Shown here piece after piece: positions 25,954 to 39,233 of a stretch of 64,000 bases of DNA. The DNA lies in assembly GCF_001457455.1 (NCBI RefSeq), contig NZ_LN831026.1, positions 2,356,001 through 2,420,000 of the forward strand, given 5' to 3'. Position 1 is the first letter of the stretch. Each line of letters begins with the position of its first letter. Below the pieces are notes generated by a model that was not told where the DNA came from, ran no database searches, and worked only from the letters and a program-made list of their open reading frames with translations. The translations under genes were made by a program, and so were the position numbers. Origin of the DNA: Corynebacterium diphtheriae (GTDB lineage: Bacteria > Actinomycetota > Actinomycetes > Mycobacteriales > Mycobacteriaceae).

Positions 25954-27669
25954 TTAGGTTTGCACGCTCCAGTGGTAGGTGGTTCCGTGAACGCCCCAGC
26001 CTCCTTCGCGCACAACTAGCCCGACAGCTTGCAGTTTATCGAGCGCAAATCTCAGCTGCCCCTGGCTCAAACCTGTGGTGCGCAGCAGTTCTTCAAAGCT
26101 CTGTTGTGACTTGAGCTCTAATGCGCGGGCTACTGTTGGCGCATTCTTGGTGATCTTTGCCAGAGTTGTTTCCCCTTTTTCCACACGGGGCGCTTGATTC
26201 TCACTGTGTGCTCCTAGAGCGAAAGTCTTATTATCACTCTCAATGAAGCCACGCTTCTTCAAACCATGCATGAGTTTTTCCGCCTCGGCCACGGTTATGG
26301 GCGAAAACTCATTGAGGATCCTGGACAAATGCCAGCTTTCCCCTTTTCGTAGCCCCACTAGCAGGTGCTTTTCGACGGCAGTAAGGCCATCTCCTCCAAT
26401 GCTGCGCAGCCACTCCAACTCTGCTTCGCTGAAAACTGAGGCACCATAGAGGATCGCAGTGAACTGCACACCAGTATCAATGAGTTGAGGTTTTGCCAAC
26501 AGTGCCTGACGGGTTTGCCTCAATACTTCTTGGATACCAGCGCCTTCACCTTCGATGACACTGTAGTCGGCTTCGGTGCGAACTCGTTTAGCAATGTCAT
26601 AAAGGCGGGGATTTACTGCATTCTTGGAAAGAGTTGCACTCTCTAACTGTTTGACTGAGACTCCCCGAAGTCCACCCGGATTAGAGATGACGAGGCGATC
26701 GTCGCAAAGCCTAATCTCCACCCATTTTCCATCAGAATTGGGGCTTAGATCGCGGTGCACCAAGGCATTTGCGATCAGCTCGCGGACGGCAGGCAACGGG
26801 TAGACGCTCTCCTTGCGCATGTTTCCACTGGAGTCGTAAACATTCCGCGTCGGCGCATTCTGTCTTACCCACGTCAGTGCAGATTCGAGCAGGTCAGGAA
26901 GAGGGCCTTCAAAGTCCTGCATATTCCTGGTACGCACACTGCTGCCTTCGCGTGGCAATTGCACTGCCGCTGTAATGCGTAGCTGTGGAGCCTTACCCTG
27001 CGGATACTCGCCCAGGGCGTAGATTCCGGCCAGCGTGAGTTCACCTTTTACCGTCACGATATTGAGAGTTTCAAGCAGTTCTTGGTCATCAATTTTCTTG
27101 GACAAGATGCGGCTTCCCGCGCGCGCAGCCTCGAGGAAACTCTTTACCCGAACAGAGTCTAAGTCTCGGATTGAAGAGTTCAAGACTGGGACTACATCGA
27201 ACTGGAAGTTCTCAGAATGAGAAAGTTTCTGGATCTCAACGAGTGCGAGATCGGCATCGTTCATTTCGTAGTCTCCATCGGATTGCCGCAGGTAGGCAAC
27301 ACTTCGATAGTGCGCCGGACGGTTTTGCAACGGCACTGGATTGACCTGTGCCACAAGCACCTGCTTACCCTCTAGAGTGAAAGTCTCACACTCGATCATA
27401 GGGGCCGGTTTCACACTGTTACGAGTCTGACTAATGAGCGCTTCTTCAAGCGCTGCCGCATCCGCAACACCGACGACTTCAAAGTCACGGTTTTCATCCA
27501 CGCCTAGGATAATTGTGCCCCCACTAGGCATATTGGCAAACGCACATGTTGTTTCTGGCAGGTTTTCCGGCAATTCACTAGCGCGTTTGACTTCGATGTC
27601 TGTGGAGTCACGATGCAAACGCCGAAACTCAGCTAGCTGCTCAGTCAAACTGTCCAGAGTCCAATTCAT
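25954..27669 (-). CDS. AlbA_2 domain ATP-binding protein (Schlafen-like), defence island
   Basis: The 571-residue protein has an N-terminal AlbA_2 domain (DIEVKRASELPENL, then CAFANMPSGGTIILGVDE). A GHKL-type ATP-binding segment follows (VRELIANALVHRD with the N-box Asn, then ISNPGGL). The C-terminal part is winged-helix-like (from TGLSQGQLRFALDKLQAVGLV). Such proteins often sit beside type I restriction genes and are called putative regulators. A 33-bp palindrome lies 77 bases upstream, the same type as at the paralogue, which suggests autoregulation. Confidence 0.82.
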   Translation of the reverse strand: MNWTLDSLTEQLAEFRRLHRDSTDIEVKRASELPENLPETTCAFANMPSGGTIILGVDENRDFEVVGVADAAALEEALISQTRNSVKPAPMIECETFTLEGKQVLVAQVNPVPLQNRPAHYRSVAYLRQSDGDYEMNDADLALVEIQKLSHSENFQFDVVPVLNSSIRDLDSVRVKSFLEAARAGSRILSKKIDDQELLETLNIVTVKGELTLAGIYALGEYPQGKAPQLRITAAVQLPREGSSVRTRNMQDFEGPLPDLLESALTWVRQNAPTRNVYDSSGNMRKESVYPLPAVRELIANALVHRDLSPNSDGKWVEIRLCDDRLVISNPGGLRGVSVKQLESATLSKNAVNPRLYDIAKRVRTEADYSVIEGEGAGIQEVLRQTRQALLAKPQLIDTGVQFTAILYGASVFSEAELEWLRSIGGDGLTAVEKHLLVGLRKGESWHLSRILNEFSPITVAEAEKLMHGLKKRGFIESDNKTFALGAHSENQAPRVEKGETTLAKITKNAPTVARALELKSQQSFEELLRTTGLSQGQLRFALDKLQAVGLVVREGGWGVHGTTYHWSVQT

Positions 27670-27820: not shown

Positions 27821-29548
27821 TTATTCCACCAGTCTGTAGCGCCGCGACCGGCCACCACCCACAGCGACAACTCGCTCCTCATCCACTAATCCATCAACAC
27901 ATGCCTTGGCTGTTCCCCGAGAAACTCCACACATCGCCATCAAGTCACTGGTAGCCAGGTCCCCAACTTCACTCAGCCACAGCATCGCCGCGTTGGTTAG
28001 TTCAGCTTGGTCTGTGGACAGATATCGAACTGGAGAAAACGGTGAAGGCTCGACCTTACGCAAAATCTCGCGACAAGCATTGCCGAGCAACCACACGCCA
28101 TCGTGCGCGATAATCAAGGGTGCTCCAGCAACCGTAGTTTGACGCGCCGCTTCCAACGCATTTCGCGCCACTTCTTTACCCGATTGCAGACCGCGCGCAA
28201 CTACGTCAATCGTTATGAACGGTCTCTGAAACAGAAGGTAAAGGACAATCGCGATCCGATAATCGTCCTGGCGCGCTTCCGGAACTATCGACGAAACCAA
28301 TTCCAACACCGGCAGCACCGGACGGCCACCTACTAGGGTCGTTTCTACAAACGGCCCTGCGATTTCCTCGATCGTTGGTGGGCGGTGACCGAGTGCGATC
28401 ATGGCTTGATACATGCGATCCACACCAACGCCTTGCTTGTCCACCAACCCCAGCGCACGATACAGGTCAGCGAGGGCGGGATAGCGAGCAGCACGGTTGC
28501 TCAGCACGTTTTCGCTGGTGATTGCAGCAGGGAAGCCACCTGGGCTACGAACGATCAACGTGCTATCGAGTTCAATCCAGCGCACATCAATTGGCTCGCT
28601 TCGATTCCAGTCGCGGTGAATCATAGCGTTGAGCATGGCTTCACGAACCGCCAGGCGCGGAATCTCAGGTACTGGTTTGTGGACGAAGCCTTCCACCACG
28701 GTGTTGTTCTTATTCACTACATTCAGCGCCTGTTCCAGATAATCCAGCTGTTCCAGGCAAGACTTCTCCGGTTCCGGCACCACTCTGTTCAGCACTTGGC
28801 CGCCGTGCACATCAAAAATGCTGAGCTCGATCGCAGTGCGGCCGAGGGAGGTGAAAAGCAGCTTTCCGGCCTGCGACAGGAATCCTTCGGCATCCAGCGC
28901 GCCAATTCCACGCAGAAGTTCTTCATCGGTGAGCTCTGCGAATGCGGGATCCCATTTTCGGGCCAGGGCAAGCGCAGCAGGGCGGGCGTCGCCCAGCGTA
29001 GCGGTGGTGACCTGCGCCATTGGGTCAAATCCGGATTGAGCTCGCTGGTATTCCCACCATTCCGCTCGATCAACAGGCCGGCAGGAGTCACCAACCCGCC
29101 ACCGCAGTCGATCCGAAGTGTCTTCTACTGGTTCCGCGGCGGCAGCCACATAGATGGCGAGAACCCGCTGGCCGAGCACACGCTTTTCGACGACATCAGG
29201 CGCCACATCAATTCGGGTGAAGATACCTTGACGCAGCCAATCGATGTCTAGCTCAGTGCCAATAATCTGACCTGTCTTGTCCTCTATTCCCACGATCAAC
29301 GCGCCACCGCCGGGTGTGTTTGCCATGCAGGCGACTTCGTCCGCCAACTTATCAGCAGCCTCAGGATTCTCTGGCTTGCCGGGCTCAATCTGCGGACCAT
29401 TGCGACGGCCGGCCTCTTCCTTGAAGTCAACCGACTGTGTCTCTTTGGTTTTCTGCACTCGCCCGTCGGCAGCCGAGGCCAAGATGGACTCAACTTGAGC
29501 AATAAGTTGCTCACGACGGTCTTCCATGTTCGGCAAGCTCAGAGTCAC
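27821..29548 (-). CDS. AlbA_2 domain ATP-binding protein, second paralogue
   Basis: The 575-residue protein has the same plan as its neighbour: AlbA_2 core VDFKEEAGRR, then CMANTPGGGALIVGIED; GHKL-like ATPase region LAVREAMLNAMIHRDWNRSE with VRSPGGFPAAIT; and a C-terminal winged-helix part with GDLATSDLMAMCGVSRGTA. Two starts are possible: GTG at 29548 or ATG at 29527 (MEDRREQL). It lies after hsdR on the same strand, with a perfect palindrome in between. Confidence 0.82.
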   Translation of the reverse strand: MTLSLPNMEDRREQLIAQVESILASAADGRVQKTKETQSVDFKEEAGRRNGPQIEPGKPENPEAADKLADEVACMANTPGGGALIVGIEDKTGQIIGTELDIDWLRQGIFTRIDVAPDVVEKRVLGQRVLAIYVAAAAEPVEDTSDRLRWRVGDSCRPVDRAEWWEYQRAQSGFDPMAQVTTATLGDARPAALALARKWDPAFAELTDEELLRGIGALDAEGFLSQAGKLLFTSLGRTAIELSIFDVHGGQVLNRVVPEPEKSCLEQLDYLEQALNVVNKNNTVVEGFVHKPVPEIPRLAVREAMLNAMIHRDWNRSEPIDVRWIELDSTLIVRSPGGFPAAITSENVLSNRAARYPALADLYRALGLVDKQGVGVDRMYQAMIALGHRPPTIEEIAGPFVETTLVGGRPVLPVLELVSSIVPEARQDDYRIAIVLYLLFQRPFITIDVVARGLQSGKEVARNALEAARQTTVAGAPLIIAHDGVWLLGNACREILRKVEPSPFSPVRYLSTDQAELTNAAMLWLSEVGDLATSDLMAMCGVSRGTAKACVDGLVDEERVVAVGGGRSRRYRLVE

Positions 29549-29630: not shown

Positions 29631-32600
29631 TTAGGGCTTGACTCCTTCACTTCCAAGTTCACCCGCATACCTTGGCGCGAACTTTTCCATCTGTTCGTAA
29701 ACCAACTGGGTGGCTTCTTTTTGTCGGTCTGGTGGATACCCGTACTTGCGCAGCAGCAACTTGATGGTGCGGCGTAGCTTTGCTTTGACGTCGTCGCGGA
29801 CGGTCCAGTCGGTGCGGGTGTCACGACGCATGGTGGCAACCAGGTCACGGGCGATGTCGGCAAGGACGGAATCACCGAGCACATCGACGGCGGATTCGTT
29901 CTGCGACACCACATCGAAAAAGGTCAGCTCATCGTTGCTCAATGCAGGCGCGAACTTCTCGCCACGACGTGATTCCTCAACCACTTCCTTCGATAGCTTC
30001 ACTAGCTCAGCGATCACTTCAGCAGCAGTGAGCTGCTGGTTGGTGTATCGCGTCATTACCTCTCGGATACGCTCCGAAAATAGTTGGCTGCGTAGTTCGT
30101 TATTTCCGGTCGCGTCACGTACTCCCTGTTGGAGCTTCGCTCTCAGCGCCTCGATCGCAATTTCAATGTTGGACTTAACGTTCTTTTCGCTGAAACCTTG
30201 GCTAGCAAGCTCCTGCAGGTTGGGCACATCCTGTCCAATTTCCGCGTAGATGTCCAACACCTCACGGCTTTCAGCAGCATCGACGACGAGCTGGCCTAAG
30301 ATACGTCGCGCGGTATCGGAAATCGGTTCACCGCGACTTGCTCTGTCCGCCGCTTCTATCTTGATCAGCCACTGGCGGGCCTCAAGGTAGAACTCGACTT
30401 CCGATCGAATCTCATCAGCGCCGTCAGCGGTCACGGCAATCGCCCAAGATCGCGCAAGCGCGCTAGAAAGTTCTCGGAACTTCTTCGCCACCGGTCGCGC
30501 CATTGGGTCTTCTGGGTCAGTGTTCCCTAGTGTCTGCGGCGAACGTAGAAATCCCACCACCGTTGCCAGTGCCCCGCGCACGTCACCACTTTGCAGCTTT
30601 GCGCGCCAATCTACCGTCACCAGTTCGTGGATTTGCCCCAAGAACTGCTGCGCGATGGTCAGCGTCTCCGCGGCATGCTGGCCGATGACTTTCTCACCGG
30701 ATTTCTCTGCATCGACGGTGAACTCATCGAGCGCTTCCTTCAGGTTGTCGGTCAGGGGCGCGTATGCGATGAGCAGACCATCTTGCTTGCCTCGGAAGGT
30801 ACGGTTCACGCGCGCGAGAGTCTGCATGAGCAATGCACCGCGCAATGGTCGGTCAATGAACAACGTGTGCAGCGGTGGCGCGTCGAAGCCGGTGAGCATC
30901 ATGTCTTTCACGATGATGATTTCCAGCTCGTCGTCTGGATTCTTCACGCGTTCTTTGACAGCCTTAATAGCGCTCGGCCGACGCATATGCTTCTTGATCT
31001 CCGCGGTGTCCGAGGGATTCGCGGAGTACACAACTTTGATCTTGCCCTTATCGTCAGCATCGCTATGCCAATCAGGGTGCTTCGCGATGATCTTGTCGTA
31101 AATCTTCATTGCGATACTACGAGTAGATGTGACGATCATGGCTTTGCCTGGGCATCCGATGAAGTCCTGCATGACGGTCTTACGGTCTTCCCACCGCAGC
31201 AGTAGGTCGTCGACAAGCGTGTCCAAGCGATCGTCGGCACCATACATGGCTTCGAGAGCAGCAGTGGTGCGCTGGATTCGGGCGCGCTCGGACTCGCTGA
31301 GGCCTTCGAGTGCCTCATCGGCGGTGGCGTCGATGTACTCATCGGTGATGCCTTGGACCCGGGCCAGCGGGATTAGCCGTGGCTCGAAGTAAACGGGCAC
31401 GGTCGCACCGTCGTCGACTGCGCGCTGCAGGTCATACACGTCAATGTCATCGCCGAATACTTTCCTAGTGTCGCGGTCCAATTCAGAAATCGGCGTGCCG
31501 GTGAAGGCAATCATGGTCGCGTTGGGCAGCGCTGAGCGCAAGTGTGCGGCATATCCGTCACGGTTTGCCCCGAAGCCGTAGTGCGACCTGTGGGCTTCAT
31601 CAGCAATGACAATGATGTTGTGTCGCTGCGACAGCACCGGGTGCTTGGCGTAGGCATTACGCTCGTCCGCGGTTAGGCCGAACTTCTGCAAGGTGGTGAA
31701 ATAGATGCCGCCCGAGGTGCGTGTGGCCAATGCTGTTCGCAGGTCATCGCGGTCTTCAATCTGGCGGGGCTTTTCCGGCAGCAGGGTGCTGGCGAGGAAG
31801 GTGCTGTAGAGCTGGCCGTCGAGTTCCGTGCGGTCGTTAATAACGATGATGGTTGGGTTTTCCAGCTCCGGGGCGCGCATCACTTTGGCTGTGTACATTT
31901 CCATTTCCATGGACTTGCCTGAGCCCTGGGTGTGCCAGACCACGCCAGCCCTGCCGTCGCTTCGCACAGCCTGCATGGTGGTGCCGGCAGCCTTGGTCAC
32001 AGCAAAGTACTGGTGCGGCTTGGCGATGCGCATGTACAGACCGCGCTCGGTGTCATCAAACGCGGTGTATTCGCGCATGAGCTGCAGGAATCGGACTTGG
32101 TTGAATACACCCCAGATCACGTTTTCCAGCCCGAGCGGGATCTCACCGGAGCTGTCCGGCTGGTCCATCTTGATTGGCTTGCCGTCGTCATCCACGTTCC
32201 ACGGCGACATGTGGTTCAGCGGGGTAAACGGGGTGCCGTAGCGCGCGTCTATGCCATCGCTTGCCACCACGACGTTGGCAAAGCGGAATGCCATGGGGAA
32301 CTCGTGGACATAGGTCTGTAGCTGGTTGAATGCTTCTTCAGCAGTGGATTTGCCGGAGGGTTTCTTCAGCTCAAAGAATGCAACCGGCAGACCGTTGATG
32401 TAGGCCACTACGTCGAAACGACGCTCATATTCCACGTTGCGGATGATGACCTGGTTGACCACTTTATAGTCGTTTTTATCCACATTGGACGACACAAAAT
32501 AAATCGTCGGATTCTGACGCTGCCCGTCGAGGTCGTAGTACTCAATTCCCGAGTAGCCCTGCACCAGCATCTGATGCACGCGCAGGTTTTCCGCCACGGG

Positions 32601-32831
32601 ATCCTGGGACTTTGGCGTGAGCAGCTCGCCGATGGCGTGTTGTAGAAACTCCTCGGGTACTTCTGGGTTCAGCTTGGAGACAGCCTCATTCAGCGTTTGC
32701 CGGAGGACTATTTCTTTCCAGTTTTGGCGCTCACCAGAGCCCGGCGCGACTGCGGTGCCGTGGAGTGGCTGCCAGTCGTTATCACCCAGCTTTTCCAAAG
32801 CCAGTCGCTCTAGCATGTCTTCACTAAACAC
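29631..32831 (-). CDS. hsdR: Type I restriction enzyme, R (endonuclease/translocase) subunit
   Basis: The 1066-residue protein has the N-terminal nuclease motif FDVVAYINGLPVAFFELKK (the PD-(D/E)xK core). The helicase motor follows, with Walker A in TQGSGKSMEME, the DEAH box VIADEAHRSHYG, AFTGTPIS, and later GFDAPPLHTLF and QTLARVNR. The GTG at 32831 overlaps hsdS by 8 bases. Together with HsdM and HsdS it would cleave unmodified foreign DNA far from the recognition site. All motifs seen are intact. Confidence 0.95.
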   Translation of the reverse strand: MFSEDMLERLALEKLGDNDWQPLHGTAVAPGSGERQNWKEIVLRQTLNEAVSKLNPEVPEEFLQHAIGELLTPKSQDPVAENLRVHQMLVQGYSGIEYYDLDGQRQNPTIYFVSSNVDKNDYKVVNQVIIRNVEYERRFDVVAYINGLPVAFFELKKPSGKSTAEEAFNQLQTYVHEFPMAFRFANVVVASDGIDARYGTPFTPLNHMSPWNVDDDGKPIKMDQPDSSGEIPLGLENVIWGVFNQVRFLQLMREYTAFDDTERGLYMRIAKPHQYFAVTKAAGTTMQAVRSDGRAGVVWHTQGSGKSMEMEMYTAKVMRAPELENPTIIVINDRTELDGQLYSTFLASTLLPEKPRQIEDRDDLRTALATRTSGGIYFTTLQKFGLTADERNAYAKHPVLSQRHNIIVIADEAHRSHYGFGANRDGYAAHLRSALPNATMIAFTGTPISELDRDTRKVFGDDIDVYDLQRAVDDGATVPVYFEPRLIPLARVQGITDEYIDATADEALEGLSESERARIQRTTAALEAMYGADDRLDTLVDDLLLRWEDRKTVMQDFIGCPGKAMIVTSTRSIAMKIYDKIIAKHPDWHSDADDKGKIKVVYSANPSDTAEIKKHMRRPSAIKAVKERVKNPDDELEIIIVKDMMLTGFDAPPLHTLFIDRPLRGALLMQTLARVNRTFRGKQDGLLIAYAPLTDNLKEALDEFTVDAEKSGEKVIGQHAAETLTIAQQFLGQIHELVTVDWRAKLQSGDVRGALATVVGFLRSPQTLGNTDPEDPMARPVAKKFRELSSALARSWAIAVTADGADEIRSEVEFYLEARQWLIKIEAADRASRGEPISDTARRILGQLVVDAAESREVLDIYAEIGQDVPNLQELASQGFSEKNVKSNIEIAIEALRAKLQQGVRDATGNNELRSQLFSERIREVMTRYTNQQLTAAEVIAELVKLSKEVVEESRRGEKFAPALSNDELTFFDVVSQNESAVDVLGDSVLADIARDLVATMRRDTRTDWTVRDDVKAKLRRTIKLLLRKYGYPPDRQKEATQLVYEQMEKFAPRYAGELGSEGVKP

Positions 32832-34044
32832 TGCTGTCTCCTTCCTCCTGCTGGTTTTGCTTTACGACGCCCACGTCCCCGGCCGCTTCCTTCGCCTCGG
32901 CAACGGTAATCTTCCCGTTCATAAGCAGCGGCAATAGCTCGTCACGGGTAGCGGCGAGGACTTGGTTTTCCTTCACAGCCGAGATTGCTCTATCTTCTAG
33001 CATTCCAAGATGCGAATGCAGGTCGAAGTATTCTTCATGAAAAACGTTAGGAACAGTGCATTCGAGTATTGTTCCCTTGGTGATGGTAGAGAACACTGAT
33101 CCATAAGATTTGGACCTAAGTTCTTCCACAATTCCTTCTATTGCCAACCGGAGGGCAGCGCTTCGGTTTTCTGGTTCAGCAAACCCATATGCCGACTGAT
33201 TGAAGGATGTCGGAGACACTAGCGTTACGACTTTTCCAACAGTGCCACGTGCAGAAAGCAACACCGCACCGGCGGGGAGCGGAGCAAAACGCCTTGTCTT
33301 TGCACACTCGGTGCTAATCCCTTCTGCAGTGCTGAGTAGGTATTTTCCATTCGCTGCAGTCATGTCAGCAACAGAGCTCCAAGGAATCTCATTAGTCCAG
33401 TTCTCTTGAACCTTTCTGGCAGGAGTCCCTCCTAATTGAGGCAATGCAACTGATTCAACAGGAACACGTTCGACATCCTTTATCGCTCGATTCCAAATAG
33501 CTGATTGCAAATCGGTTATCGAATTAACTACCCGCTGATTCGCCGCAATCTTGTCGTCCAAGGCACCGAGGACATCGGCGATTGCTAACTGCCGTCTGAG
33601 CACAGCAGCAGGCACCAGGAGCTTTCCGAAATCCGTCTTATTTAAGATTGGAGAAGCTGATCCTCCCGCGATGTCTTTGAGCTGAGGAGCTCCATTCAAA
33701 ATCGCGTAGTAGAGGTATCGATCATGGGCCTTTCCTGGTGTTGCTGTAACGCTGTTGATCTGCTGGTTCGTCAACACCTGATTCTTTACAAAACCAGTTT
33801 TTCCAAGCGTAGACCCGATACACGTAACACACGTCGAATTTGCAGGAACTAGCCTGCTTCTGAGATTCTTCAAAGCCTCTACAGCTACGACACGATTCGT
33901 ACTGACGATTTGATCCTTGTGGGAAAAATCAGACGGGGTAACAAATGGGATGCCCTCACATTTTTCAGTCAGCTGAAGAAAACGAGTTGGCGTCGAACCG
34001 GTTCTAATCTCAGCAAGACTGGCAAGCTCTACAAAATTAACCAT
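32824..34044 (-). CDS. hsdS: Type I restriction-modification specificity subunit
   Basis: About 406 residues in two half-repeats, each with a target-recognition domain followed by a conserved helix. The first reads KDQIVSTNRVV..NKTDFGKLLVPAA and ends ALDDKIAANQRVVNSI. The second has TNEIPWSSVADMTAAN and ends KENQVLAATRDELLPLLMNGKI. It decides the bipartite DNA sequence that is methylated or cut. The start ATG overlaps the hsdM stop (TGATG). Specificity genes recombine often; the sequence recognised cannot be read from here. Confidence 0.93.
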   Translation of the reverse strand: MVNFVELASLAEIRTGSTPTRFLQLTEKCEGIPFVTPSDFSHKDQIVSTNRVVAVEALKNLRSRLVPANSTCVTCIGSTLGKTGFVKNQVLTNQQINSVTATPGKAHDRYLYYAILNGAPQLKDIAGGSASPILNKTDFGKLLVPAAVLRRQLAIADVLGALDDKIAANQRVVNSITDLQSAIWNRAIKDVERVPVESVALPQLGGTPARKVQENWTNEIPWSSVADMTAANGKYLLSTAEGISTECAKTRRFAPLPAGAVLLSARGTVGKVVTLVSPTSFNQSAYGFAEPENRSAALRLAIEGIVEELRSKSYGSVFSTITKGTILECTVPNVFHEEYFDLHSHLGMLEDRAISAVKENQVLAATRDELLPLLMNGKITVAEAKEAAGDVGVVKQNQQEEGDSSV

Positions 34045-35651
34045 CACTTCAACCTCCCCAGCTGCTCGCGAACGACAGCGTCCAACCGCACGGACTCGTC
34101 TAATGCAGCAGTCAATTCTGCGGTTAGACGTGCGATCTTTTCGTCGATAGGCTCATCATCTTCTTCGGCCTCAGGCATGCCCACATAGCGGCCAGGTGTT
34201 AGCGCGTAGCCAGCTTCGCGGATCTCCTCAATCGTCGCGGACTTACAGAAACCCGCCTCATCCTCGTACTCCCCCTCCGCGGACTTACGCCCACGCCAGG
34301 TTCGGAACGCATTAGCAATCTTGGCGATGTCCTCATCACTAAACGCCCGCTCCGTGCGGTCGATCATGTGGCCGAGCTGGCGGGCGTCGATAAGCAATAC
34401 CTCACCACGGCGATCAACACTGCCACCAGCACCCGCCGACTTATCCTTAGCAAAAAACCACACGCACACCGGAATGCCCGTGCCACGGAACAACTGCGCC
34501 GGCAGCGCAATCACACACGACACAACATCATCTTCCACCATTTTCTTGCGGATCTCGCCCTCACCAGAGCTTTGCGACGTCATTGTGCCATTCGCCATCA
34601 CCACACCAGCTTCGCCGTGATCCTTCAGCTTCGAAATGATGTGCTGCATCCACGCAAAGTTCGCATTCTTCGCCGGAGGCACACCGTACTTCCAACGGGC
34701 ATCCTCCTCGTTGCAAATCCAATCCTTAATGTTAAACGGCGGATTAGCCATGATGTAGTCCATCTTGGTGCCCGCATGAATATCGCGAGCAAACGTGTCA
34801 CCCCAGCGCTCACCCAAACCGGACGAACTGATGGCGTGAATAGCCAAGTTCATCTTCGCCATACGCCACGTACGCTCATTCAGCTCCTGACCATAAACCG
34901 CAATGTTGCTGCGGTCACGCTTCGTGGCCTCCAAGAACTTCTCCGCCTGCACAAACATGCCACCCGAACCACAACATGGGTCATACACACGCCCCTCAGT
35001 TGGCTCAAGGATTTCCACCAACGTCCGCACGACCGGCTGCGGCGTATAAAACTCGCCACCCCTCTTACCCTCAGCCTTGGCGAACTTGTCCAGAAAGTAC
35101 TCATAGACCTCCCCAAGTAGGTCGCGGGCCTTCTTATCCTTAGTGCTGGCAAAGTACGTAGAGCTAAACAGGTCCACTAATTCACCGAGACGGCGCTGGT
35201 CGATATTGTCCTTGCCATAAATCTGCGGCAGCGTGCCCAGTAGCGATTCGTTATCCGCCATGAGCTGCTGCATAGCCTCATCGATCAACTTGCCGATAGA
35301 CTTGTGTTTTCCTTCCAGATCCATGCCCTTGGAATACTTCTTTAGGAAGTCCCAACGGGCATTCGACGCCACCCAAAAAACATTCTCGCTGGTGTAAGCG
35401 TCAACATCGGCAAGATCTTCTAGGATGTATTCCTCATCAATGCCCTGGCCTTCTAGCTCCGCGCGGATTTCCTTCTGACGTTCCTCAAAGGAATCCGATA
35501 CATACTTTAGGAACACCAGCCCCAGAGCAACATCCTTGTACTGCGACGCATCCATAGAACCGCGAAGCTTATCCGCGGACTTCCACAATGTGTCCTTGAT
35601 TTCCTTAGAGGTGGAAGGGACCTGCGCCACTTCCTTCTTCTTCCGTACCAT
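34044..35651 (-). CDS. hsdM: Type I restriction-modification N6-adenine methylase subunit
   Basis: The 535-residue protein has an N-terminal HsdM helical domain (LWKSADKLRGSMDASQYKDV), the AdoMet-binding motif VYDPCCGSGGMFV and the catalytic motif ANPPFNIKDW. It methylates adenine at the site chosen by HsdS and protects the host. It is the first gene of the tightly coupled hsdM-hsdS-hsdR set. An 80-base gap separates it from the HTH/methylase-like gene upstream. Confidence 0.95.
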   Translation of the reverse strand: MVRKKKEVAQVPSTSKEIKDTLWKSADKLRGSMDASQYKDVALGLVFLKYVSDSFEERQKEIRAELEGQGIDEEYILEDLADVDAYTSENVFWVASNARWDFLKKYSKGMDLEGKHKSIGKLIDEAMQQLMADNESLLGTLPQIYGKDNIDQRRLGELVDLFSSTYFASTKDKKARDLLGEVYEYFLDKFAKAEGKRGGEFYTPQPVVRTLVEILEPTEGRVYDPCCGSGGMFVQAEKFLEATKRDRSNIAVYGQELNERTWRMAKMNLAIHAISSSGLGERWGDTFARDIHAGTKMDYIMANPPFNIKDWICNEEDARWKYGVPPAKNANFAWMQHIISKLKDHGEAGVVMANGTMTSQSSGEGEIRKKMVEDDVVSCVIALPAQLFRGTGIPVCVWFFAKDKSAGAGGSVDRRGEVLLIDARQLGHMIDRTERAFSDEDIAKIANAFRTWRGRKSAEGEYEDEAGFCKSATIEEIREAGYALTPGRYVGMPEAEEDDEPIDEKIARLTAELTAALDESVRLDAVVREQLGRLK

Positions 35652-35731
35652 TTTCTTTCCTCACTTCTCTTTGCTTTTCGCTATTTTCTAGTTTCGTTGA
35701 AGCACTGAGCTTCATGCAGTTATCGCGTGAG

Positions 35732-37684
35732 CTAACCAGGCGCCGCCCTAATAGCGCCGCTGACCAGTGCCTCTCCCAGCTCCAATTGAAAACTGTCGAG
35801 CCGATCTAGTTGAGTCTGAAGTTCCTGCCGCTTCGCATTGACCTCCACTAGAGCAGATTCAAAGGCAACCGCGTCCTCCCGATCCACAACCGGCACCAAC
35901 CACGATTCCTTCTTCTTCGCCTTCACCTTGCTAAGCTGCTGCGCCAACAAATGCGGAGATGTCACCCTCTTCAGAAGTTCTTTCGTCCTCCCCCGAGTCT
36001 GCCTGCACCGCAGAACCTGCACTGGCGCCTCCACAAGCGCGCCACCGGAAGAGTCCACAAACACATGCGGGCTGCCATCGAAAGCAAACAAAACATCGCC
36101 CGGCTCGGTCAAATGAGCATTCCGAAGCTTAAATTCCAACTCCAACAAATCAACTTTTCGCTCACCGACCTGTACAAACCCCAACAATTCACTTCGCCCA
36201 ATCACCGGCACAGTGCCATCAGGATTGGCTACATTAATATCGGCAAGCTTGAACCCCGACAACAACTTCACCACCGCTTCGGGCCCGTTCGTCGCCTGCG
36301 CCCAGTTGACCAGTTGCTTCCGTCGCGGAGCATACGGATTTCCCGCTTGAGCAAAAGGCGCGTTATTGAAAGGAGTAATGCCTATCGATGCCGCACTCTC
36401 ACGCAACTGTGTCATCGACACGGCTTGACTAATCGACACTTGCCGTTCCAATGTCGGCATCAAAGAATCACGCGTCCGCGCGATACGCTGCGGGATGACC
36501 TCAGCTTTATGGAAGGTATGCGACCTCGGATTTACCCGGTTATCTACAGCTGCTAATACATCTCGGACTAGATGACGAACTGAATCTGGGGCTAAATCCA
36601 TCACCGCATAATCCGCAAGAACAACCACATCATTAGTGGTTTCGGCATTGACACTATTCCGCAGAGCCCACAACGCAAGTTGCTTTTGCCCCAAATGCCG
36701 AGTCCACCCTTTAGGTAGCAGCGCGGCAAAACGAAGTGAAGTTTGCAAGCTGGTTCGACTCGGCCACAGGCAATTCTTTCGCTCGGTGTTTAGGTACTCC
36801 GATTGAGAAGAAATGAGCAAATCAGCCGGCCCCACTACCAATACGCATCCACGTTGGTCAATACCGGTCACAGCGAGATCCACCTGATTGAAAAACTCTT
36901 CAGAGTTATCGGCTGTAGCGGCCAACCATCGCATTAACACTACGGCGGAAGGATCCCATTCGTCAGTGTCCACCTCTACCGGAATGCCCAGCCCAATGCT
37001 CAAACACATTTCCGGGCTGAATCGGGAATACTGCAGAGCTAAACGGGAAGGTACAGGCATTGCGCCAGAAACTCGTTGAGCCCACGTATCACCGCCAGCA
37101 CCTAAGGCCACAATTTCTCGGCTGCCCTCGTCAATGCTTAACATCTGTGCAATTTCTGATCCCACGACATCGAGGCACAGCTCAGCACCAGTAATCATGC
37201 CTTCGGCAGATGCGTTACGACGATACTCGATTATCCTCTGCAAGACTTTGACCGCGGAGAAACCTGCCTCTGCCAATTCATTAGCGATAGCGACCGCTGG
37301 TTCCAAATCACTGTTGAGGACTGACTCCGGAACAAGCGCTTCTAAGAATAAACGATCATAAACAAGCTGCGGCGTTACTTCCTCCCCAGTTAAAGCATGC
37401 ACTGCCAATGCTGCCCACACCGCTGGGCTCTTCATGGCATCTAGGAACAGTTCACTATGGAAAGCGGCGTCCTCGACAGCTTCTGCATTATTACCGTGAT
37501 TCGTGTCAATAAGCCACCGCGCTACTTCACGAGCATCAAATTTCATCGAAGGATCTGTTTCTACAGGCTGCGGAAAAGGAGTCGCAGAGGTTGAAGGAAA
37601 ACGCGTCTGCCATTGCGTAACAGCCGGACGTTTTACCTCAGCTAAGTTCGCTATCCCTTGCATAGAGATCAACAGTGCGCTCAT
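35732..37684 (-). CDS. HTH / degenerate N6-methylase-like / HsdS-like fusion protein
   Basis: About 650 residues, with no named family that I am sure of. An N-terminal HTH reads ISMQGIANLAEVKRPAVTQW, then RFPSTSATPFPQPV and KFDAREVARWL. The middle resembles actinobacterial HTH-fused DNA methylases (RFAALLPKGWTRHLGQKQLA, ALWALR), but the glycine loop is only VALGAGGDTW and no NPPY/F catalytic motif is present. The last 200 residues look like a single HsdS target-recognition unit (EPGDVLFAFDG..APVQVLRCRQTRGR) with a coiled-coil end (ELQTQLDRLDSFQLELGEAL). It lies directly upstream of hsdM on the same strand. It may be a regulator or an extra DNA-recognition subunit. Start ATG 37684 or GTG 37690. 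Confidence 0.6.
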   Translation of the reverse strand: MSALLISMQGIANLAEVKRPAVTQWQTRFPSTSATPFPQPVETDPSMKFDAREVARWLIDTNHGNNAEAVEDAAFHSELFLDAMKSPAVWAALAVHALTGEEVTPQLVYDRLFLEALVPESVLNSDLEPAVAIANELAEAGFSAVKVLQRIIEYRRNASAEGMITGAELCLDVVGSEIAQMLSIDEGSREIVALGAGGDTWAQRVSGAMPVPSRLALQYSRFSPEMCLSIGLGIPVEVDTDEWDPSAVVLMRWLAATADNSEEFFNQVDLAVTGIDQRGCVLVVGPADLLISSQSEYLNTERKNCLWPSRTSLQTSLRFAALLPKGWTRHLGQKQLALWALRNSVNAETTNDVVVLADYAVMDLAPDSVRHLVRDVLAAVDNRVNPRSHTFHKAEVIPQRIARTRDSLMPTLERQVSISQAVSMTQLRESAASIGITPFNNAPFAQAGNPYAPRRKQLVNWAQATNGPEAVVKLLSGFKLADINVANPDGTVPVIGRSELLGFVQVGERKVDLLELEFKLRNAHLTEPGDVLFAFDGSPHVFVDSSGGALVEAPVQVLRCRQTRGRTKELLKRVTSPHLLAQQLSKVKAKKKESWLVPVVDREDAVAFESALVEVNAKRQELQTQLDRLDSFQLELGEALVSGAIRAAPG

Positions 37685-37690
37685 CTTCAC

Positions 37691-37953
37691 CTACCTCGCT
37701 TTCAACGCTCATGCCGTGATTGCTCCAACGATCAAATCTGATAATAGAGAACTTTAATCAGTGTTTTTTATATGTTTCTGTTAAGCACCCTTAACGAACA
37801 AGACTTAATGTGTAGCAGCCAACCTCTGCGGAGAAATACTCAGTGTGTGCGACGAGATCCACAGGCGTGGTTTCGTCGCTAAGCACAAACCTAACCGAGC
37901 GAGGCAGACCCAAGAGGCAAAACTGGTGGGTTGGGAACCGCGCGTCCTGATGG
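37691..37953. other. Gap with a possible 60-residue ORF fragment
   Basis: An AT-rich stretch (37727-37790) probably holds the promoter of the gene above. A minus-strand frame at 37791-37973 reads PVDLVAHTEYFSAEVGCYTL near its end and overlaps the fic stop. I recognise nothing in it; it may be a relic or chance. Confidence 0.3.
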
Positions 37954-39189
37954 CTACGCCAAGCGAGTATCAAACTGACTACTTGCTAGCTGGCGATCCG
38001 CATGAGTGATCAGGCTTAAGATGTCGTCGGCATAATAACCAGTCGTGCCTCGAGTACCGATAACTTTTCCGCGCAAAATGCCCGCAGCCTGCAAATCTTC
38101 AAGCGCTCGGCGTGCGTTGGACCAGGTCACACCGTACAACCGCTCTAGCGTCTTAGCTGTCACAATCGGATGCGCAGCAAGACCTGTGAGCAGTTTGAAA
38201 TCTATCGAATCTGCACGCAGCGCACGGGTTTTACCTTGGCTTTTCCGGTACTCGTCTAAGCGTTGTTCCCAATCCTGCTGGATCTCTAATAACTGGTCAG
38301 CTAGTAAATTCGCCTGTGTGACGGCTTCCTGCGCCGCATCAAAAAAGGTACCGAGCCAACGAGGAACATCACCTTGACGAAACGCCGTAAGCCCTTCGAC
38401 ATAGCGTTTGGACCACGTGCCCAAAATTAAACTAATGGGCAAGATTGTTTGATGTGTTAACCCACGACGCAATAGAGTCCCATGGATCAAGGCACGCCCA
38501 ACACGGCCGTTTCCATCCGCGAACGGATGAATAGTTTCAAACTGTGCATGAATAATCGCAGCCTGGGTCAAAGCTCCATGGGCGGCACCATTAAAGTACC
38601 GACAGAAATCGGCCATTAAGGCGGGAACTTCTTCAGGCGGTGGCGGAACAAATTCGGCCCCAATGGGTGTTCGACCAGATCCGCCAATCCAGTTTTGAAT
38701 CTTTCGTATCCCTACAGGAACCGTTGGATGCGCACCAAGAAGCTCAGATTGCAGCTGCCCAAGATGCTCTGGGGTAATTTCTGGTGTAGTAGCAAAGGAA
38801 TTTTCTACGGAACGAAGCACTTGTAGGTTTCTCGCCACGGCTTCAGCACTTTCCTTGAAGCCACGAACGTCTTCTTCTTGTGCCAATTCGGCAAGAACAA
38901 CCTTGTCAACGTTAGGCGCAATGCCTTCAATGCGTGACGACGAAATCGCTTCCGAGCGCATCAGCAGGCGCGCAATGCTTTCCAATTGCCCCGCACCATC
39001 TCGCCGCCCTAGAGCAATAATGCTTCTCTCGATTTCCGCAGCTTTTTGCGCCAATTCCACAGGAATAACGAGACTGGCATCAGAAAGCGTGTCGGGGATG
39101 TATGCCTCATAGCTGCCGCCTTGTCTATCTCTTCGAGAAATGCCACTACCGTCAGCCGGTATCCAATTACGCGTAACCCATTGAGGCAT
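37954..39189 (-). CDS. Fic-family protein (probable AMP-transferase) with C-terminal winged helix
   Basis: The Fic core is complete: HPFADGNGRVGRALIH, with the catalytic His and the phosphate-binding loop. An N-terminal Fic_N domain contains the SSRIEGI segment, the usual inhibitory glutamate helix. The C-terminal 70 residues form a winged helix (TAKTLERLYGVTWSNARRAL). ATG 39189 (MPQWVTRNW) has an AAAGG site 8 bases upstream; an earlier ATG at 39225 has none. Fic enzymes transfer AMP to proteins. The winged helix and the repeats upstream suggest autoregulation. Confidence 0.88.
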   Translation of the reverse strand: MPQWVTRNWIPADGSGISRRDRQGGSYEAYIPDTLSDASLVIPVELAQKAAEIERSIIALGRRDGAGQLESIARLLMRSEAISSSRIEGIAPNVDKVVLAELAQEEDVRGFKESAEAVARNLQVLRSVENSFATTPEITPEHLGQLQSELLGAHPTVPVGIRKIQNWIGGSGRTPIGAEFVPPPPEEVPALMADFCRYFNGAAHGALTQAAIIHAQFETIHPFADGNGRVGRALIHGTLLRRGLTHQTILPISLILGTWSKRYVEGLTAFRQGDVPRWLGTFFDAAQEAVTQANLLADQLLEIQQDWEQRLDEYRKSQGKTRALRADSIDFKLLTGLAAHPIVTAKTLERLYGVTWSNARRALEDLQAAGILRGKVIGTRGTTGYYADDILSLITHADRQLASSQFDTRLA

Positions 39190-39233
39190 GTTTAACGCCT
39201 TTCCATTCCCCAAAGCCTGTTTCATGATTGTTT

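Follow-up and report, generated by a model that had tools for sequence, protein, structure and literature searches.

Autoregulators embedded in restriction-modification (R-M) systems, and regulators in which a helix-turn-helix (HTH) is joined to a methylase, are already known kinds, as shown by RptR, the C proteins (including that of a mycoplasma type I locus) and M.SsoII. Most C proteins are small HTH proteins that stand on their own. In type II R-M systems they bind upstream of their own promoter and control both it and the R-M genes, and a C-family protein has been reported to repress the type I hsd locus of Mycoplasma gallisepticum (PMC12707154). RptR is a small alpha-helical gammaproteobacterial protein which represses type I R-M islands, is encoded by the first gene of the operon and binds a palindromic site in its own promoter that is conserved with the regulator, namely TAGCTA repeats overlapping the -10 element (PMC12255303). 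M.SsoII carries an HTH-like N-terminal region fused to an active C5 methylase, has a regulatory site in its own promoter and acts as a repressor competing with RNA polymerase (PMC3978073).

The window analysed here, a 64,000-nucleotide stretch of Corynebacterium diphtheriae DNA, carries on its minus strand a gene, termed HTHx (35732-37690), lying directly upstream of hsdM (34044-35651, with DPCCG and NPPF motifs present), hsdS (32824-34047, with two Methylase_S stretches) and hsdR (29631-32831). The HTHx product is 650 or 652 residues long depending on whether the ATG at 37684, the more likely start, or the GTG at 37690 is used. It comprises an N-terminal winged HTH (residues 8-63; 37502-37669, minus strand) with its recognition helix at residues 21-30 (37601-37630), an HsdM-like core without motif I and motif IV (residues 79-417; 36440-37456), a single HsdS-like unit (residues 459-603; 35882-36316) and, in the predicted structure, a long C-terminal helix (residues 604-643; 35762-35881) presumed to form a coiled coil. 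A sequence-only reading of the locus had proposed this anatomy, as well as a position directly upstream of hsdM and outside the classical hsdRMS make-up, and both were borne out, the coiled coil on the presumption drawn from the long helix. The protein gave no above-cut-off match in Pfam, NCBIfam or PADLOC; among the Pfam matches listed at E<=1, for 10 homologues as well as for the protein itself, there was no WYL domain of the BrxR/CapW type; and the protein, used singly as query against PDB sequences, returned nothing at E<=10.

On the evidence of the sequences, we consider it quite probable that HTHx is a pseudo-methylase transcription factor, an HTH dimer on an upstream palindrome that controls its own type I R-M operon. 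The protein would descend from an old fusion of HTH, methylase and recognition domain that turned transcription factor. A dimer, probably formed via the C-terminal coiled coil, would seat its pair of N-terminal HTHs on SWTAAS-N4-STTAWS, the palindrome upstream of the gene, the binder being presumably the HTHx protein itself, and occupancy of this site would control the operon that HTHx opens, with regulator, hsdM, hsdS and hsdR presumably forming one transcript. As a guess, the pseudo-M/S body might sense free HsdM or HsdS, the stoichiometry of the complex or an invader's DNA mimic, and so tune expression.

Like M.SsoII, HTHx has an HTH N-terminal to a methylase fold and a palindromic site, with a predicted operator role, at its own promoter. 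In contrast, however, its fold is of the N6-type, HsdM-like and devoid of catalytic motifs, it carries in addition an S-like unit, it belongs to a type I operon, and its palindrome lies upstream of the promoter. With RptR it shares the first position in a type I R-M operon and a conserved promoter palindrome, but RptR is without a methylase or HsdS part, while HTHx is a 652-residue protein with another palindrome in another position. C proteins likewise are without a methylase-derived body. In the open-licence PMC literature, in so far as its texts were available to us, no earlier report of the HTHx family or of such control was found.

Structure prediction and a fold search, which had been suggested as a check on the three-part architecture, recovered the HTH, the HsdM-like core and the single HsdS-like unit in the predicted models. 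One model was built from an alignment of 6 sequences and reached a mean pLDDT of 61.8, being poor outside the core; the other, built from 57 sequences of which 51 were motif-bearing sister-type proteins (see below), reached 84.5. As the alignment behind the second model contains methylase sequences, the match of the core fold is best judged jointly with that of the first model, for which type I HsdM already led the PDB matches. The core thus has the HsdM (PF02384), N6-methyltransferase fold, yet AdoMet motif I and the NPP[FY] motif IV are both absent from it. An intact AdoMet pocket or catalytic loop, which would have told against the sequence-only reading, is accordingly represented by neither motif, and HTHx as an active methylase was ruled out by the loss of the two. 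Two diversifying target recognition domains, as expected of HsdS (PF01420), are also lacking, since there is one unit only.

Relatives of HTHx (21-96% identity) were found upstream of hsdM in 29 of the 31 loci examined, and the hsd linkage on which the sequence-only reading had staked itself was therefore consistent. Within the genus, a single-protein search matched 17 of 242 genomes (10 over the length of the protein, the rest in the HTH only), and within the phylum 3 of 396, the source genome being counted in both. A search of the class with a family alignment matched 105 of 394 genomes, with at least 18 matches at E<1e-40 spanning at least 390 of 667 positions, and most of the other matches listed were to the HTH. 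Locus context was collected in one set of 18 loci, 11 of them of the HTHx family (12 with the window), and a further set of 16, 15 of them of the family, giving 27 including the window; a solitary HPPF-type locus (L169), an HTH fragment with stops (L038) and six loci of the sister family (L034-L037, L039 and L040) were left out of the family counts. hsdM lay downstream of HTHx in 25 of these 27 loci, after a 0.8 kb gap in L041, the two exceptions being L157, which has no hsd genes, and L168, where the contig ends. Four later loci, on three Arthrobacter/Paenarthrobacter plasmids (typed conjugative) and in one phage record, also have HTHx with hsdM. In two of the plasmids HTHx is annotated as 'hypothetical protein' and is followed by methyltransferase, subunit S and subunit R; in the third plasmid locus, L172, the HTHx gene and hsdM are each in pieces. 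The phage record (L173, MT835479.1), filed as a human-faecal bacteriophage, contains regulator-hsdM-hsdS-hsdR with a perfect operator-like palindrome, and may be either mis-binned bacterial DNA or a genuine mobile carrier.

Other neighbours are less constant. A Fic-family gene adjoins HTHx in the window (37954-39225) and also in L157, there on the opposite strand and with no hsd genes; in the close relative L025 fic is split into two ORFs. The survey of co-occurrence with fic and hsdRMS suggested by the sequence-only reading thus upheld the hsd half but not the fic half: beyond the window and L025, fic was near HTHx in 2 of 25 other loci tested (L157 and, by a weak match, L158), and fic upstream as a conserved toxin partner was ruled out because the linkage is not kept across loci. 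Two Schlafen-AlbA/HATPase_c_4 proteins come after hsdR in the window (25954-27669 and 27821-29548), with relatives near hsd also in L028, L030 and L032, and a DIP2311-like domain is present in a neighbour.

Upstream of HTHx in the window lies an operator-like palindrome, GTTAAG-GGTG-CTTAAC (37780-37795, minus strand). The palindrome was first spotted by eye in the upstream DNA of nine loci; the pattern was then widened to accept C at base 6 and afterwards tested unchanged on four held-out loci. SWTAAS-N4-STTAWS occurs upstream of HTHx in 30 of the 31 loci, perfectly in 23 and with one mismatched position in 7; L032, which belongs to the family and has hsdMSR, is without such a palindrome upstream. 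In the first 27 loci, 19 had a perfect palindrome within 250 bp upstream and seven more had one with a single mismatched position, against a mean of 0.0025 loci of 27 (maximum 1) in 400 trials with Markov-shuffled upstream regions. Across 512,282 bp there were 20 perfect sites, of which 19 fell within 250 bp upstream of HTHx. The held-out plasmid and phage loci, found by protein similarity alone, had a perfect site in four cases out of four, each the single one in 14-16 kb. In the 2.46-Mb host genome the form STTAAGN4CTTAAS has one site, that upstream of HTHx. SWTAAG-form sites numbered 12 in the 12 host genomes searched; 9 lay upstream of HTHx, and 4 of the genomes were without an exact site of this form. 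A reversed control pattern gave 17 sites in the same genomes; as such the pattern is thus no rarity, and it is the location that matters. In the sister family, which has a different HTH, none of 86 upstream regions (14 EPP-type and 72 others) carried the TAAG palindrome, which was thus ruled out as a general feature of hsd operons.

The identity of operator base 2 follows residue 23 of the recognition helix, which is Ala in the window protein. Among the 26 loci compared, with alignment columns having more than 8 gaps omitted, Ala was accompanied by T in 9 of 9, and Val (16) or Ser (1) by A (15) or mixed G/A (2) in 17 of 17. Residue 23 was the top co-varying protein column for this base, with a normalised mutual information of 0.74 against 0.45 for the next, and the four held-out loci all combined Val23 with A. 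For operator bases 1 and 6, columns outside the HTH show co-variation that is as good or better; these bases therefore follow phylogeny and were not used as evidence. On a tree from the rest of the protein the residue-23/base-2 label needs at least 3 changes and yields three independent pairs, all concordant (sign test p 0.25), but three switches are too few for significance. Of the roles that the sequence-only reading had offered, that of a regulator appears strongly supported by this conserved palindrome and its co-variation with the predicted recognition helix.

A -10-like element, TATTAT (37741-37746, minus strand), lies 33 nt downstream of the palindrome, which would place the latter at about -61 to -46. 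In 23 of 30 loci a TAnnnT follows the palindrome at a distance of 32-34 nt, other 3-nt windows counting at most 5, and 7 of the 30 have none at that distance. Since the palindrome is wholly upstream of the promoter at near-fixed spacing, an activator would fit better than a steric repressor, and HTHx probably acts as an activator, repression being possible. No sigma-70-like pair with a -35 element was found at 35600-38000 of the window. Actinobacterial promoters are frequently without a clear -35, which makes its absence a weaker argument for activation. A separate promoter for hsdM might lie in the 80-bp gap between HTHx and hsdM.

It could be envisaged that an unlinked regulator binds the palindrome and that HTHx is a structural or accessory type I subunit docking on DNA by its HTH. 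The body does resemble HsdM together with a portion of HsdS and might enter the complex, the structural match to 7eew (titled an intact MTase) spanning residues 72-650, albeit at an rmsd of 26.5, and the binding of HTHx to the palindrome is a prediction. However, a global regulator would have many sites rather than the one STTAAG-form site of the host genome, the operator variants track a residue in the HTH of HTHx, and none of the 14 type I-linked loci that begin with the sister protein has the site, three of these loci (L036, L037 and L039) having an HsdM 74-76% identical to that of the window. We thus regard this arrangement as improbable.

Still less probable is that HTHx pairs with HsdM or HsdR as an alternative specificity or methylation subunit and directs the complex to a second DNA sequence, for which its HsdM-like fold and one HsdS-like unit might qualify it. 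The neighbouring hsdS already has two recognition stretches, motifs I and IV are lost, and the S-like part (residues 441-652) does not diversify between pairs of loci with swapped hsdS. It is 97% identical between the window and L025 (hsdS 34%, hsdM 95%), 94% between L028 and L031 (hsdS 32%, hsdM 97%) and 94% between L162 and L164 (hsdS 29%, hsdM 94%). HTHx thus does not follow specificity swaps, and the alternative specificity subunit, another role put forward by the sequence-only reading, is disfavoured. Similarly slight odds attach to a decoy or guard against anti-restriction DNA mimics of the Ocr/ArdA type, a decoy being the third role on offer in the sequence-only reading; here the pseudo-methyltransferase cleft would take up the inhibitor, so that the real enzyme is released or increased. 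The structural matches do include type I enzymes bound to Ocr or ArdA, though it is the enzyme chain that is matched, and a pure decoy would not need an HTH and an operator. Capture of an inhibitor could instead be the signal input of HTHx acting as a regulator.

Profile comparison places HTHx in a broader actinobacterial HTH-N6MTase family whose catalytic motif drifts. The alignment of HTHx with the HTH-'N-6 DNA methylase' proteins (PF02384; for example P0058 and L036) gave an hhalign probability of 99.6 and E 1.1e-23 over 575 columns. The domain order of this sister family is the same, and its EPP-motif branch is likewise linked to type I hsd genes; in contrast to HTHx, which has neither motif, most of its members retain AdoMet motif I together with an xPP motif IV that drifts. 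Motif I was DPxxG in all 98 sequences compared, of which 92 were database proteins and 6 came from loci (a control HsdM being excluded), and was mostly kept in the 80 loci surveyed, some having DFTxG. Amino-methylases have [DNS]PP[YFW] as motif IV, with D, N or S as first residue. In the sister family this residue was E in 65 of 98 (EPPL, EPPF and others), the remaining forms being DPPY, DPPF, NPPF, NLPF, HPPF and APPF, with the same spread in the 80 loci. From the known motif, E, H or A at this position would imply inactivity, and many of the D/N members may be active. The series DPPY, EPPx, no motifs suggests a drift from methylase to regulator in graded steps, and among the actinobacterial proteins called 'N-6 DNA methylases' there may be some that work as regulators and not as enzymes.

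The upstream regions of the sister family showed no single clear palindrome, only enrichment of GTTCACA/TGTGAAC in the solitary family, where 37 of 72 regions had it (2.45 expected), and of ATTCACA in the EPP family, where it occurred in 9 of 14 (1.0 expected). Several of the genomes counted are close relatives, and the pairing of sites varies. These motifs are perhaps the sister families' own candidate operators.

For the Actinobacteria, HTHx supplies a defined candidate for the regulator, for its operator and for the geometry of the promoter. A broader conjecture, which we hold to be doubtful, is that of self-sensing R-M: actinobacterial type I operons would be run by a pseudoenzyme that mimics half of the operon's own methyltransferase (M fused to half of S) and relays complex state, subunit balance or capture by phage or plasmid DNA mimics to an operator-bound HTH pair, and the wider HTH-N6MTase family, including the solitary copies by Ser/Thr kinase genes, would amount to a large and so far unrecognised group of transcription factors derived from methylases.

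Several gene associations were seen around the sister proteins. In 13 of 14 loci (L034-L037, L039, L040 and L043-L049, four of the loci having provided queries; L050 is without it) the EPP-motif HTH-methylase has an NYN-like (PIN-like nuclease) gene immediately upstream. The Pfam NYN matches are weak, being above cut-off only in L034 of 4 tested; this gene is a possible effector partner that the HTHx family lacks. By a look at the sequences only, a Hanks-type Ser/Thr kinase-like gene stands beside the HTH-N6MTase in 6 of 15 solitary-family loci, downstream in L054, L059, L082, L095 and L099 and upstream in L061, the hosts being Nonomuraea, Actinomadura, Planotetraspora and Paractinoplanes. Finally, in L045-L048 (Microbacterium, Curtobacterium and Actinomycetota) the EPP protein is followed by two consecutive hsdM-like genes (499 and 502 residues), which recall solved two-M systems such as PacII M1M2S.
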